DNA of 64,000 nucleotides. Origin: Devosia sp. (GTDB taxonomy: Bacteria > Pseudomonadota > Alphaproteobacteria > Rhizobiales > Devosiaceae). Under the pieces are notes generated by a model. It saw only the letters and a list, made by a program, of their open reading frames with translations, did no database searches and had not been told where the DNA came from. A program made the position numbers and the translations under genes. Shown here in pieces: positions 26,821 to 31,351 of this stretch (the stretch's first letter is position 1; every line of letters starts with the position of its first letter). The stretch spans positions 124,001 through 188,000 of the forward strand of contig NZ_JACZKG010000072.1 in assembly GCF_014860165.1 (NCBI RefSeq), written 5' to 3'.

Positions 26821-27474
26821 GTGCAGCACGTGAGGACAAGATGGTGGCAGCGCGCGGCTGGCGCAATGGTGCTGACCGCCGCGATGTCGGCACTGGCTCC
26901 GCCGGTTGCGGCCGAAGATATCAGGATAATGCTCTACGGCGACTCCCTGCTCGCCGGGCTGGGCCTGTCGGCCGAAGAAAGCCTCATGGGTCAATTGCAG
27001 GCGGCGATGGATGCGGAGCGGATCCAGGCGACGCTGGTCAATGCCAGCGTTTCCGGGGACACCACGGCCGATGGGTTGGCGCGGCTGGACTGGACACTGG
27101 GTGACGCCCCCGATGCGGTGATCCTGGGGCTCGGCGCCAACGATATGCTGCAGGGCTTCCCGGCAACCGATGCCCGGGCGAACCTTGACGCGATAATGGC
27201 CCGGCTTGATCAGCTCGGCGTGCCAGTATTGCTTTTGGGTATGAAGGCCAATCGCGGCCTGGGCAGCGACTATGTGGACGAGTTTGACGCCATCTATCCC
27301 GACCTGGCCCAGGAGCATGGGACCCTGCTCTATCCGTTCTTCCTTGGGGGCGTGGCGCTCGATCCTGACCTCAACCAGCGCGATCTGCTCCACCCCAACG
27401 CCGAGGGTGTCGCGGTGATCGTGGCTGGCATGATGCCGCTGGTGGAACAACTGGTCCAAAGCGTGGAGCCGTGA
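26821..27474 (+). CDS. tesA: SGNH/GDSL arylesterase or lysophospholipase (TesA-like)
   Basis: About 217 residues. The track ORF runs upstream through the ABC gene; GTG at 26821 is chosen because a GGAAGGG site lies 6 bases ahead and a signal peptide (RTRWWQRAAGAMVLTAAMSALAPPVAA) follows. SGNH blocks are intact: GDSLLAG (nucleophile Ser), SVSGDTT (Gly), LGANDMLQG (Asn) and DLLHPN (Asp-His). It is expected to be a periplasmic hydrolase of acyl esters or thioesters. Its divergent pairing with a YbbA/YbbP exporter is conserved in many proteobacteria. Confidence 0.88.
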   Translation: MQHVRTRWWQRAAGAMVLTAAMSALAPPVAAEDIRIMLYGDSLLAGLGLSAEESLMGQLQAAMDAERIQATLVNASVSGDTTADGLARLDWTLGDAPDAVILGLGANDMLQGFPATDARANLDAIMARLDQLGVPVLLLGMKANRGLGSDYVDEFDAIYPDLAQEHGTLLYPFFLGGVALDPDLNQRDLLHPNAEGVAVIVAGMMPLVEQLVQSVEP

Positions 27475-27547: not shown

Positions 27548-27778
27548 CTATGACTTTCCCAGAGCATCACGAAAGGCTTCGATGACGCGGGGATCCGGTT
27601 CGGAACGCTCGGCCTGCCCTGACTTCAGCAGCGCGACTGTCTTGGCGAGCTGATCGATATAGGCGCGGCAATGCTTGCACATGAGCAGGTGCATCTTGAC
27701 GCCGGCGCGCTGGCGCAGGGTCAGGGTGCCTTCCAGGTAATCGGTCGCGGTCTCGCTGAGTTCGCGGCAACTAAGCAT
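27548..27778 (-). CDS. Small zinc-finger anti-sigma factor (zf-HC2 type)
   Basis: A 76-residue protein whose centre has HLLMCKHCRAYI; with Cys4, the first conserved Cys, this gives the H-x3-C-x2-C pattern of zinc-binding anti-sigma domains. There is no membrane segment, so it is a soluble, minimal anti-sigma factor. It lies downstream of the ECF sigma gene in the same direction, with 90 bases between. It probably holds the sigma factor inactive until metal or thiol stress alters the zinc site; that trigger is inferred. Confidence 0.8.
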   Translation of the reverse strand: MLSCRELSETATDYLEGTLTLRQRAGVKMHLLMCKHCRAYIDQLAKTVALLKSGQAERSEPDPRVIEAFRDALGKS

Positions 27779-27868: not shown

Positions 27869-28495
27869 TCAAGAGTTTCCCATCAGCGCTTCCAGTGCTG
27901 CCCGGATGCGGGCGCGCCCACGATGCAGCAGGATGCGATGGTTGGCTTCGCTGACCTCCAGGATAGCGCAGGCTTCCTCGGGAGAAAGACCTTCGAGATC
28001 ACGCAGGGTGACCACGGCGCGCTGATTGGCCGGCAGCGTTTCGAGCACGGCCATGGCATGTGCGAGCAGTTGCTTGCCACCCACGATGCGTTCCGGGTTG
28101 ATCTCGGACCACCGCCCCGGTGGAGATAGCCAGGAGCCGTCGCCCGAAAACCGATCGGGATCGACCGCCGGGTCATTATAGCCCATGTCCGAGAACGACA
28201 CCGAGCGACCGTTGCGCTTGGCCTTGGCGCGGGCGATGTTGGCGAGAACGGCGAACGTCCAGCTCTTGAGGGATGAGCGCTCCTCAAACCGCGCTATGCC
28301 CGATATGAGCGCAAGCCAGGTATCCTGCACCGCTTCTTCCGCCGCTGCGGGATCGCGCAGGAATGTCCGGGCAAAGGCCAGCATGGACTTTTGTTGTTCG
28401 GCCACGAGCTGGCGAAAGGCCTGCTCGTCTCCGCGCTTCAGCGCCTGGATCAATGCCCGCTCGTCGCGCCCGGACCCAGCAGCGCCCAAAACCAT
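27869..28495 (-). CDS. ECF RNA polymerase sigma factor controlling the bufferin locus
   Basis: About 208 residues from the ATG at 28495 (MVLGAAGSGRDERALIQALKRGD). The longer track start at 28630 is rejected because a strong promoter lies inside that extension. Sigma2 is seen as AFARTFLRDPAAAEEAVQDTWLALI and sigma4 as LRDLEGLSPEEACAILEVSEANHRILLHRGRARI. It would direct transcription from GTAAC/CGAA promoters found before its own gene and the divergent bufferin operon. Downstream lies its likely anti-sigma factor. Inducer not known; copper, gold or chromate/cadmium stress are known for related loci. Confidence 0.9.
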   Translation of the reverse strand: MVLGAAGSGRDERALIQALKRGDEQAFRQLVAEQQKSMLAFARTFLRDPAAAEEAVQDTWLALISGIARFEERSSLKSWTFAVLANIARAKAKRNGRSVSFSDMGYNDPAVDPDRFSGDGSWLSPPGRWSEINPERIVGGKQLLAHAMAVLETLPANQRAVVTLRDLEGLSPEEACAILEVSEANHRILLHRGRARIRAALEALMGNS

Positions 28496-28553: not shown

Positions 28554-28579
28554 TTCGCAGGATTGCGACCGGCGGTTAC
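28554..28579 (-). promoter_or_regulatory. ECF-sigma promoter of the sigma gene (GTAACC-N16-CGAA)
   Basis: On the minus strand GTAACC (28579-28574), 16 bases and CGAA (28557-28554) match the motif I recall for SigF of Caulobacter. The predicted transcript starts about 50 bases before the chosen ATG, which supports both autoregulation and the shorter coding sequence. Confidence 0.7.
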
Positions 28580-28770
28580 AGAAATGTCTCCTGATCTGTA
28601 ACGCTGACTGCTGCCGACGGACGTGAGCACATGGGGCCGATCAGCACTCCTCGGTCCCTTTCCGTCACCGGTATCGTCCCTTCGCCGCGCGCAGATTGTT
28701 CGTGTGGCCAGGCGTCCATTCGTGCGCTTCGCCGCTTCGATCTGCTCACTATTCTGTGAAGAGCCACGTC

Positions 28771-28795
28771 GTAACGGTAATGCCCGTCAACCGAA
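28771..28795 (+). promoter_or_regulatory. ECF-sigma promoter of the bufferin operon (GTAACG-N15-CGAA)
   Basis: GTAACG (28771-28776) and CGAA (28792-28795) lie about 50 bases upstream of the precursor ATG. Relative to the sigma gene promoter the spacer is one base shorter and the sixth -35 base differs. Position and shared elements indicate coregulation. Confidence 0.65.
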
Positions 28796-28846: not shown

Positions 28847-29140
28847 ATGAACCGTCGGACCTCGCTCGCTCTCGCCGCCTCGCTGCTCACCGCCGTCGCC
28901 GGTCTGTCCGTGCAGGGCGCTGTCGCTCAGGACGCCACCGAAAAGTGCTACGGCGTTGCCCTTGCGGGCCAGAATGACTGCGCCGCCGGCCCCGGCACCA
29001 CCTGCGCCGGCACATCTGTCATCGACTACCAGGGCAACGCCTGGAAGGCAGTTCCGGCAGGAACCTGTCTGACCATGTCCTTTGAAGGCGACCGCATGGG
29101 CTCGCTTGAAGCCCTCGATCGCGACCTGCCCCAGGCCTGA
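28847..29140 (+). CDS. bufA: Bufferin-type RiPP precursor peptide (DUF2282)
   Basis: A 97-residue precursor. Residues 1-28 form a signal peptide ([20 protein letters not shown], cleavage after AVAQ), so the product goes to the periplasm. The core holds four cysteines (34, 45, 53, 74) in the DUF2282/BufA1 context [17 protein letters not shown] and [18 protein letters not shown]. In described bufferins the two central cysteines are converted to thiooxazole heterocycles by the BufB/BufC pair and the product binds copper; the match here is by pattern. AAGGGAG site 8 bases upstream. First gene of a four-gene operon. Confidence 0.9.
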
Positions 29141-29211: not shown

Positions 29212-30081
29212 ATGGACGCACCGCACCTTCCCCCACGCGCCGGTCTGGGACTCAAGCCCCAGCACTATGCCGAGATTCTTGAAAGCCGCCCCGATATCGG
29301 ATTTTTCGAGGTACACGCCGAAAACTATATGGGTGACGGGGGACCACCGCATCGGTACCTCGCAGCGATCGTTGATCGATATCCGCTCTCGCTGCATGGT
29401 GTCGGCCTGTCGATCGGCGGCGAGGCTCCGCTCAACCGGGACCATCTGCGCCGCCTGCGGTCATTGGTCGACCGCTACAAGCCACAATCGTTTTCCGAGC
29501 ATCTGGCCTGGTCGTCGCATGAGGAGACAAGCCTCAACGACCTGCTGCCGCTGCCCTATACCAATGCCACGCTGGACCGGGTGGTCGCCCATGTCGAAGA
29601 GGTCCAGCAGGCGCTGGGCCGCACCATGCTGCTCGAAAACCCGTCCACCTATGTGCTGTTCGCCGAAAGCACGATCGACGAGATCGATTTTCTGGCGGCC
29701 ATCGCCGAACGGACGGGCTGCGGGCTGCTGCTGGACGTCAACAATGTCATGGTCTCCTCGGTCAATCACCGGCTCGACCCCTTCACCTATGTCGAGCGCT
29801 TCCCCGTGCATGCTGTGGGCGAGATCCATCTGGCCGGCTATGACGAGACCACCGACGCCGCTGGCGAGCGGCTGCTGATCGATGCCCATGCCTCGCGGGT
29901 CAGCCAGGACGTCTTCGCGCTCTTTCGGCATACGCTGGGCCGAACAGGACCGGTGCCGACGCTGGTGGAGTGGGACAATAACGTGCCCGCCTTTTCGGTG
30001 CTGGCGGACGAGGCGCGCATTGTCGATCTTGCCATCACGGAGGTCTCCGCTCGCGGCGACCGCCAGGAGCGCGTTGCATGA
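29212..30081 (+). CDS. bufB: Bufferin modification enzyme, DUF692 multinuclear iron oxygenase-like (BufB/MbnB family)
   Basis: A 289-residue cytosolic TIM-barrel-type protein of DUF692. Metal ligands typical of the family are visible: H62 (LHGVGLSIGG), H97 (SEHLAW), E142 (LLENPS), D175/N178 (LLDVNN), H206 (EIHLAG), D224/H226 and E253 (LVEWD). Family members such as MbnB use a multi-iron centre with a DUF2063 or MbnC partner to oxidise peptide cysteines to heterocycles. A GGGAG site lies 7 bases before the ATG. The stop overlaps the next start (ATGA), coupling BufB and BufC synthesis. Confidence 0.93.
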   Translation: MDAPHLPPRAGLGLKPQHYAEILESRPDIGFFEVHAENYMGDGGPPHRYLAAIVDRYPLSLHGVGLSIGGEAPLNRDHLRRLRSLVDRYKPQSFSEHLAWSSHEETSLNDLLPLPYTNATLDRVVAHVEEVQQALGRTMLLENPSTYVLFAESTIDEIDFLAAIAERTGCGLLLDVNNVMVSSVNHRLDPFTYVERFPVHAVGEIHLAGYDETTDAAGERLLIDAHASRVSQDVFALFRHTLGRTGPVPTLVEWDNNVPAFSVLADEARIVDLAITEVSARGDRQERVA

Positions 30082-30836
30082 CGATCGGGTCCGTTCGTCA
30101 GGCAGACTTTGTCGCCGCGCTGGTCGACCCGGCAAGGGCGGTACCATCAGGCATCGTCTCCTACCGCGGCGACAGCGACACCAAGCGCTTCGCGGTCTAT
30201 CGCAACAATGTCCATGTCGGACTGGTTGGCGTGCTGGCCGCCAAGTACCCGGTTTGTGCGCAGCTGGTGGGCGAAGAGTTTTTCACCGTCATGGCGCGCA
30301 TCTATGTGGCCGACCACAAACCCACCTCACCCATCATGATGCAATATGGTGCCGATTTCCCTGCCTTTATCGCCGACTTCGCCGGCGCGCGCTCGGTGCC
30401 ATATCTTTCCGACATGGCGGCGCTCGAGGAGGCATGGAGCATCGCGTACAATGCGGCAGATGACAGCCCGGCCGGCTTGGCCGAGATCGCTGCGATCGAT
30501 CCGGAAGTCTTGCCGGACCTGACTTTGAAGCCCCATGCGGCGACCGGCCTGCTCCGATCGGACTACCCGATCGGCTCCATCTGGTCCGCGCATCAGGCGC
30601 CGGGGGTAGCCGTTCGGGCGGGCGCAGAGGCCGTATTGATCACGCGGCCTGCACTGGACGTGAAAGTGACGGTCATCCCCACCGCAGATGCTGTCTTTGC
30701 GCATGACCTGCTGCAGGGCTCGGCTGTCGGCGACGCAGTGGAGCGCACACTGATCAGCCACCCCGAATTTGATTTCGGAAGCGCCTTGGTGGGGCTTTGT
30801 TCCCTTGGCGCATTTTCCCAACCGGCGTTGACGTAG
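30078..30836 (+). CDS. bufC: Bufferin modification partner protein, DUF2063 (BufC/MbnC-like)
   Basis: A 252-residue protein. The DUF2063 domain spans the N-terminal part: KRFAVYRNNVHVGLVGVL near 35-52, KYPVCAQLVGEEFF near 55-68, and SPIMMQYGADFPAFIADF near 84-101. It starts within the stop of the DUF692 gene. The family acts as recognition partner of the DUF692 enzyme, presenting the precursor; this is family knowledge. The C-terminal half is a less conserved domain. Confidence 0.9.
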   Translation: MTIGSVRQADFVAALVDPARAVPSGIVSYRGDSDTKRFAVYRNNVHVGLVGVLAAKYPVCAQLVGEEFFTVMARIYVADHKPTSPIMMQYGADFPAFIADFAGARSVPYLSDMAALEEAWSIAYNAADDSPAGLAEIAAIDPEVLPDLTLKPHAATGLLRSDYPIGSIWSAHQAPGVAVRAGAEAVLITRPALDVKVTVIPTADAVFAHDLLQGSAVGDAVERTLISHPEFDFGSALVGLCSLGAFSQPALT

Positions 30837-30850
30837 AAAGCAGGCTCATC

Positions 30851-31351
30851 ATGCTGCAGAAAATTGGAAGTCTCTGTCAGGCTGCGGATCGGCTGATTGC
30901 GGCCATCCCCCACTCCATTAGCCTCCTGGTCTTGCGCGTGGCACTTGCCATTCCGTTCTGGCGCTCTGGCATGACCAAGTGGGACGGATTTCTCAATCTC
31001 TCGAGCGGAGCGCGCTACCTGTTCGAGCAGGAGTTCAAGCTCCACATCTTCGGGCAAGCCATAGCCTATCCGTTTCCCCTCACTGCTGCATTTCTGGCAG
31101 GCCTAGGCGAGGTCGTGCTGCCAGTGCTGCTCGTGCTGGGCCTGGGCACCCGATTTGCCGCGGCGGGCATTCTGCTCATGACCTTGGTGATACAGCTGAC
31201 CATTCCCGATGGTCTGATCAACTTCCATTTGCCCTGGGCCGCCATGGCGCTCGCGCTGATGGCCTTTGGCGGCGGACGGCTATCTGTCGATGCCCTCGCA
31301 ATGGGGATGATGCGGCAGACGCCAGCCCAGCGCGCACTCCACCCCTTGTGA
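30851..31351 (+). CDS. bufD: DoxX-family membrane protein of the bufferin operon
   Basis: About 166 residues from the ATG at 30851; the longer track start overlaps the previous gene. Four hydrophobic helices are visible: SISLLVLRVALAIPFWRSGM, ITYPF-type second segment, FLAGLGEVVLPVLLVLGLG, and a C-terminal pair ending before LSVDAL. It belongs to DoxX, often fourth in bufferin and gold-induced (gig) operons, 14 bases after the DUF2063 gene. Its task may be redox- or membrane-linked support of peptide maturation; not established. Confidence 0.88.
   Translation: MLQKIGSLCQAADRLIAAIPHSISLLVLRVALAIPFWRSGMTKWDGFLNLSSGARYLFEQEFKLHIFGQAIAYPFPLTAAFLAGLGEVVLPVLLVLGLGTRFAAAGILLMTLVIQLTIPDGLINFHLPWAAMALALMAFGGGRLSVDALAMGMMRQTPAQRALHPL

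Follow-up and report, generated by a model that had tools for sequence, protein, structure and literature searches.

The gene at 27548..27778 (minus strand) of the window, by which we mean the whole 64,000-nucleotide stretch of Devosia sp. DNA that was analysed, very probably encodes a soluble zinc-type (ZAS) anti-sigma factor for the ECF sigma factor of the adjacent gene. We consider it probable that the protein serves this local sigma factor and that the neighbouring bufferin operon is mainly controlled by SigF and its membrane anti-sigma factor NrsF, with at most a secondary local input. This reading would correct the premise that an ECF pair adjoining a bufferin operon controls that operon. 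Within this single locus, two sigma systems appear to be told apart by their promoter classes, which agree in the -35 element and differ in the -10 element (CGAA vs AGAC). For Devosiaceae this yields an assignment, open to test, for a zf-HC2-paired ECF subfamily that had not been studied before and for a small redox/membrane regulon. A literature search on sigma and anti-sigma factors of Devosia returned nothing relevant.

The anti-sigma protein

The open reading frame starts with an ATG at 27778 and ends with a stop at 27548 on the minus strand (MLSCRELSETATDYLEGTLTLRQRAGVKMHLLMCKHCRAYIDQLAKTVALLKSGQAERSEPDPRVIEAFRDALGKS). Its 76-residue product matches PF13490 (zf-HC2; E 4.2e-8, 33.6 bits, cut-off 22.2) and the NCBIfam model NF052368 'antisigmaE' (58.5 bits, cut-off 50). 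The H-x3-C-x2-C site consists of H30, C34 and C37, and with Cys4, a fourth candidate ligand absent from the earlier note, the protein conforms to the ZAS motif C/H-x23-26-H-x3-C-x2-C (C4-x25-H30-x3-C34-x2-C37). These positions are kept in an alignment with 31 relatives, the rows of which were picked for a similar pattern, so that the invariance arises partly by construction. No membrane helix was detected in the protein, the hydrophobicity of 19-residue windows peaking at 0.42, compared with up to 2.03 and 22 windows above 1.6 in NrsF of the same genome, and no match to PF06532, the family of the multi-pass membrane protein NrsF, was obtained. The reading frame, both profile matches and the lack of a membrane window thus agree with the earlier note, which had described a soluble zf-HC2 protein of this length with an H-x3-C-x2-C site beside a sigma factor.

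The AlphaFold model comprises four helices (mean pLDDT 92), and its nine best PDB matches in Foldseek are all anti-sigma domains (RslA, RskA, ChrR; probability 0.92-1.00), with weak E-values of 0.05-0.3, as expected for so short and helical a protein. Since orthologues occupy the same position beside orthologous sigma genes in many Devosiaceae, and since dN/dS against the nearest three relatives is low (0.12-0.18), the reading frame is not a chance one. From its sequence we infer that the protein binds zinc and inhibits the sigma factor.

The adjacent sigma factor

The anti-sigma gene lies directly downstream of the ECF sigma gene (27869..28495, minus strand), separated from it by 90 nt, and the sigma gene diverges from bufABC-doxX. 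The sigma factor has 208 residues, with a likely start at ATG 28495; a 253-residue reading frame from GTG 28630 is a mechanical extension. Its dN/dS against the nearest three relatives is 0.06, and the sigma/anti-sigma pair is under purifying selection. The nearest named relatives, from D. marina, D. subaequoris and Devosia sp. FKR38, are 88-92% identical.

The earlier note had expected a membrane anti-sigma factor at this place, an expectation that does not hold for this sigma factor. A zf-HC2 gene immediately follows the sigma gene in 27 of the 28 named relatives that reach 38% identity, in organisms spanning Devosia, Streptomyces, Acidimicrobiaceae and Planctomycetota, so that a soluble partner is the norm in this subfamily. 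SigF of the same genome shares only 33% identity with the window's sigma factor, over only 76 residues, and the best NCBIfam models of the two differ. In a tree built by a quick method, with some long branches, the sigma factor groups with those of Devosia, actinobacteria and planctomycetes (98) and apart from the NrsF-paired sigma factors (SH-aLRT 90). Family models, tree and identity together rule out a SigF with a swapped anti-sigma factor.

Two further arrangements were observed. In one genome (G130, L051 3056-7405) two zf-HC2 genes roughly 4 kb from each other point in opposite directions, with a recognisable sigma gene beside only one of them, and in L095 a low-complexity reading frame rich in Met, Lys and Asp precedes the zf-HC2-paired sigma gene.

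Promoters and control of the bufferin operon

The bufferin operon is located on the plus strand and comprises bufA, the bufferin precursor (DUF2282, 28847..29140, profile match), bufB, the MNIO maturase (29212..30081; NF050167, 386 bits, cut-off 310), bufC, a DUF2063 partner protein (30078..30836, profile match), and a gene for a DoxX-family membrane protein (30845..31351, profile match). Upstream of bufA lies a SigF-type promoter, GTAAC-N16-CGAA (28771..28795, plus strand), and a second one, GTAACC-N16-CGAA (28554..28579, minus strand), is found 59 nt upstream of the sigma start; both resemble the SigF promoter of Caulobacter, GTAACC-N16-CGAA (PMC3511200). These are the only two GTAAC-N16/17-CGAA sites in the 64 kb, where 0.23 are expected, and since the bufA site is also conserved, chance was ruled out; the promoter type that the earlier note had ascribed to the locus is thereby confirmed. 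The site at the sigma gene also occurs in the three nearest relatives, while a full match is absent in more distant ones, which suggests that a SigF-to-sigma cascade was gained in the clade of these four genomes. Either SigF drives the sigma gene, or the sigma factor now reads CGAA too.

Across the family, 32 of 46 bufA regions have a CGAA-type promoter, irrespective of the presence of a zf-HC2-paired sigma factor, and none (0/46) has an AGAC promoter. The CGAA promoter follows NrsF instead, being present at 30 of the 34 bufA loci in NrsF-positive genomes vs 2 of the 12 in NrsF-negative ones (Fisher p 1.3e-5, which overstates the evidence because the loci are phylogenetically related). Of the two NrsF-negative exceptions, G243 is 84% complete and the other bufA-bearing genomes of its genus (g96) all have NrsF; G219 is 96% complete and contains a zf-HC2-paired sigma factor. 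The sigF-nrsF pair of the host genome is intact and lies on a contig other than the window's (C5; L001 440-2115), and SigF-type sites precede sigF operons, including that of the host. This pair diverges from a gene for a pentapeptide MxKDx repeat protein, with SigF-type promoters on both sides.

The zf-HC2-paired sigma factors appear to use a different promoter, GTAAC-N16/17-AGAC. In their loci within the family, the tetramer that most often follows GTAAC at a distance of 16-17 nt is AGAC (16 occurrences vs 1.5 expected; in 30 shuffles no tetramer exceeded 11), a motif that was found post hoc, after looking at the data. Most AGAC sites lie 29-138 nt upstream of genes for DUF6789, fatty acid hydroxylase and FAD oxidoreductase. 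Beyond the family, zf-sigma loci yielded no AGAC motif; the sole exception of any kind there is a planctomycete locus (L167) with GTAAC-N17-GGAC 87 nt upstream of the sigma reading frame.

These distributions bear on the suggestion of the earlier note that the anti-sigma factor feeds the bufferin operon. In its full form, the zf-HC2 protein would sense the metal or thiol state of the cytoplasm and control bufABC-doxX mainly through the adjacent sigma factor, in place of SigF/NrsF. The adjacent, divergent position of sigma gene and bufA would fit this, as would the restriction of CGAA promoters in the window to these two genes, a pattern expected of an autoregulated sigma factor with one divergent target. 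Further support comes from the precedent of MseR (PMC2893595, PMC2954202) and HrsE/RpoE2 (PMC7907618) over bufferin-type genes, from zf-HC2 and bufA genes no more than 2 kb apart in 5 of 399 Pseudomonadota genomes, and from G219, which keeps the CGAA promoter at bufA while NrsF was not found in it. However, CGAA stands at bufA with or without a zf-HC2-paired sigma factor and is mostly missing where NrsF is absent, the cluster of the zf-HC2-paired sigma factor uses AGAC and not CGAA, and SigF/NrsF is intact in the host genome. We regard predominantly local control as unlikely. SigF/NrsF is favoured as the main controller of bufA because the CGAA promoter tracks NrsF, because zf-sigma loci use AGAC and because the C5 pair is intact. 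The earlier note had named, as a refutation of its reading, an NrsF-type gene elsewhere that controls the sigma factor; such a gene is indeed present, and its control of bufA is what we infer from the promoters.

In Devosia marina (G148, L052 10578-11216, minus strand) and in G213 (L055 128-811, minus strand) an orphan nrsF adjoins bufA divergently, with no sigF between them. Both were considered as intermediates of a sensor swap and are kept as observations only, since the promoters argue against a swap. The bufB gene beside the zf-sigma cluster of Devosia marina (L052 11761-12627) is split into two reading frames, and the bufA promoter there reads CGAC and not CGAA; a second bufA locus of the same genome (L121) retains an intact promoter.

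History of the locus

In sister Devosia the sigma/zf-HC2 pair sits inside a larger gene cluster. On one side it is flanked by genes for an FAD disulfide oxidoreductase, a VTT-domain protein, a fatty acid hydroxylase and often an SDR, and on the other by genes for DUF6789, an AhpC-like protein, a CDP-alcohol transferase and an ABC transporter, after which the bufferin operon follows in L052, L053 and L054. In L059 the FAD oxidoreductase, VTT, fatty acid hydroxylase and SDR genes stand between a GDSL/TesA-like esterase gene and the anti-sigma gene. The left end of the locus is flanked in L054 and L059 by LolD/FtsX transporter genes that the window shares. In L052-L054 and L059 the cluster is still in place between the flanks; the window retains these flanks, the sigma/anti-sigma pair and the bufferin operon, with everything between gone. 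The best match in the host genome to the FAD oxidoreductase, the one cluster gene that was checked genome-wide, has 38% identity, too low for an orthologue. The gene order looks like the remnant of the cluster and is most simply read as the result of deletion to either side of the pair, with the esterase gene (26851..27474, plus strand) as its putative left flank.

A conserved Devosiaceae ECF/zf-HC2 cluster with GTAAC-N16/17-AGAC promoters was also seen in L056, L057, L058, L059 and L060, with genes for DUF6789, CDP-alcohol transferase, fatty acid hydroxylase, VTT, FAD disulfide oxidoreductase and sometimes an AhpC-like protein. It has the appearance of a redox/membrane stress regulon that is so far uncharacterised.

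Loss of the neighbours raises the question of whether the pair might be a leftover without present function, kept only because the loss is recent. The locus has lost the genes that ancestrally adjoined the pair, and an internal promoter that precedes the anti-sigma gene of L053 (GGAC, in the context GGACTAA) is not preserved in the window. Against this, both reading frames are intact with all four zinc-ligand positions, and the dN of the window's sigma factor to its relatives (0.049-0.061) is no larger than that between two of the relatives (0.061). We consider a functionless remnant very unlikely.

What the deletion may have left behind is a promoter. The element at 28598..28622 (plus strand), GTAAC-N16-GGAC, is probably a remnant promoter of the type that belongs to zf-HC2-paired sigma factors. 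It occupies the place from which the divergent DUF6789/CDP-alcohol transferase gene is driven in relatives, and it now lies 249 nt upstream of bufA. It therefore makes a secondary local control of the operon possible. Among the 46 family bufA regions, no other has such an element, GTAAC-N16-[AG]GAC, upstream. Control by two inputs, in which the deletion placed bufA behind the old promoter at 28598 while the SigF promoter at 28771 was kept, would let both cytoplasmic thiol or metal stress and envelope metal stress induce bufferin, and SigF might drive the sigma gene as well. The uniqueness of the element, the absence of a terminator-like site between it and bufA, purifying selection on the pair and the GGAC that precedes the anti-sigma gene of L053 are in line with this. 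The element, however, reads GGACGTG and not the usual AGACATA, and given also its distance from bufA it may be decaying. On balance we find two-input control rather unlikely, and note that it overlaps with the secondary contribution allowed for in our preferred reading of main control by SigF/NrsF. That the deletion rewired the operon to answer to two separate sigma systems, one being SigF with its membrane metal sensor and the other the soluble pair, which would sense thiols or zinc and formerly governed a redox/membrane cluster, seems doubtful; if true, regulatory capture would have taken place here naturally and recently, with its intermediates preserved in sister Devosia species.

Frequency of the arrangement

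A DUF2282 precursor gene occurs in 102 members of a sample of 399 Pseudomonadota genomes. Counted from coordinate tables, with zf-HC2 defined by NF052368, a zf-HC2 gene lies within 2 kb of it in 5 genomes and within 10 kb in 7 of the 102, and NrsF within about 3 kb in 24 of the 102. At the level of the order, zf-HC2 stands beside the bufferin precursor in 1 of 71 (the host genome) vs 12 of 71 for NrsF. The family sample (136 genomes, 45 with DUF2282) gives 6 of 45 for zf-HC2 within 10 kb and 13 of 45 for NrsF within 3 kb. A conserved family operon of zf-HC2 and bufA is ruled out by these 6 of 45, usually with other genes between. The zf-HC2/bufferin adjacency is a minority yet recurrent arrangement. 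The text of a 2025 survey of MNIO clusters names NrsF, and not zf-HC2, among the partners of bufferin clusters (PMC12452194).

Proposed mechanism

We propose that in the resting cell the 76-residue protein would fold around one zinc ion, held by Cys4, His30, Cys34 and Cys37, and in this form keep the co-transcribed ECF sigma factor inactive in the cytoplasm. Oxidation of the cysteines or a thiol-binding metal would release the sigma factor, as judged from RsrA, MseR and HrsE. Its ancestral targets were probably the DUF6789, CDP-alcohol transferase, fatty acid hydroxylase, VTT and FAD disulfide oxidoreductase genes, read from AGAC promoters. Loss of this cluster from the host locus would have left the pair beside bufABC-doxX. 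The operon itself would be transcribed by SigF from the CGAA promoter at 28771, under the membrane anti-sigma factor NrsF encoded on C5, and the local sigma factor would contribute at most secondarily through the leftover promoter at 28598.

Comparison with known systems

A soluble zinc anti-sigma factor over bufferin-type genes is already known from MseR in Neisseria and HrsE in Haemophilus. In Neisseria meningitidis, MseR (NMB2145) represses the operon NMB2140-NMB2145 (PMC2893595), the gonococcal equivalent of which holds genes for DoxX, a putative periplasmic protein, DUF692/MNIO and DUF2063 (PMC2954202). MseR resembles the window's protein in having the same Cys4, His30, Cys34 and Cys37, in its small size and in its lack of a membrane segment (PMC2893595), and its gene likewise lies directly downstream of that of its sigma factor, meningococcal sigma-E. 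The latter, however, shares an operon with the bufferin-type genes and was shown to control them, whereas the window's sigma gene diverges from bufA, which has a SigF-class promoter. HrsE of Haemophilus influenzae is a cytoplasmic ZAS anti-sigma factor of 67 residues that co-purifies with the sigma factor RpoE2 and restrains it, RpoE2 being required for the HOCl induction of DoxX/COG3767/COG3220/DUF2063 genes (PMC7907618). This system differs from the window's pair in that it responds to hypochlorite and oxidants, in that its target operon is distant from rpoE2 and in its sigma subfamily. In the tree, in which the Neisseria sequence is not included, 13 beta- and gammaproteobacterial zf-HC2-paired sigma factors (MseR/HrsE-associated) form a group of their own (99), a clade apart from the window's sigma factor.

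The Caulobacter SigF-NrsF system resembles the host genome in its GTAACC-N16-CGAA promoter and its bufferin operon targets (PMC3511200), the host's own pair being on C5. Caulobacter NrsF is a six-pass membrane protein, while the window's anti-sigma factor is soluble and its sigma factor is not SigF. With RsrA, ChrR and RslA the modelled protein has the fold of the zinc-binding anti-sigma domain in common. It does not reach the full-length family models of RsrA (21.8 of 62.5 bits) and ChrR (18.8 of 124.5 bits), and it has no additional sensor domain at its C-terminus.
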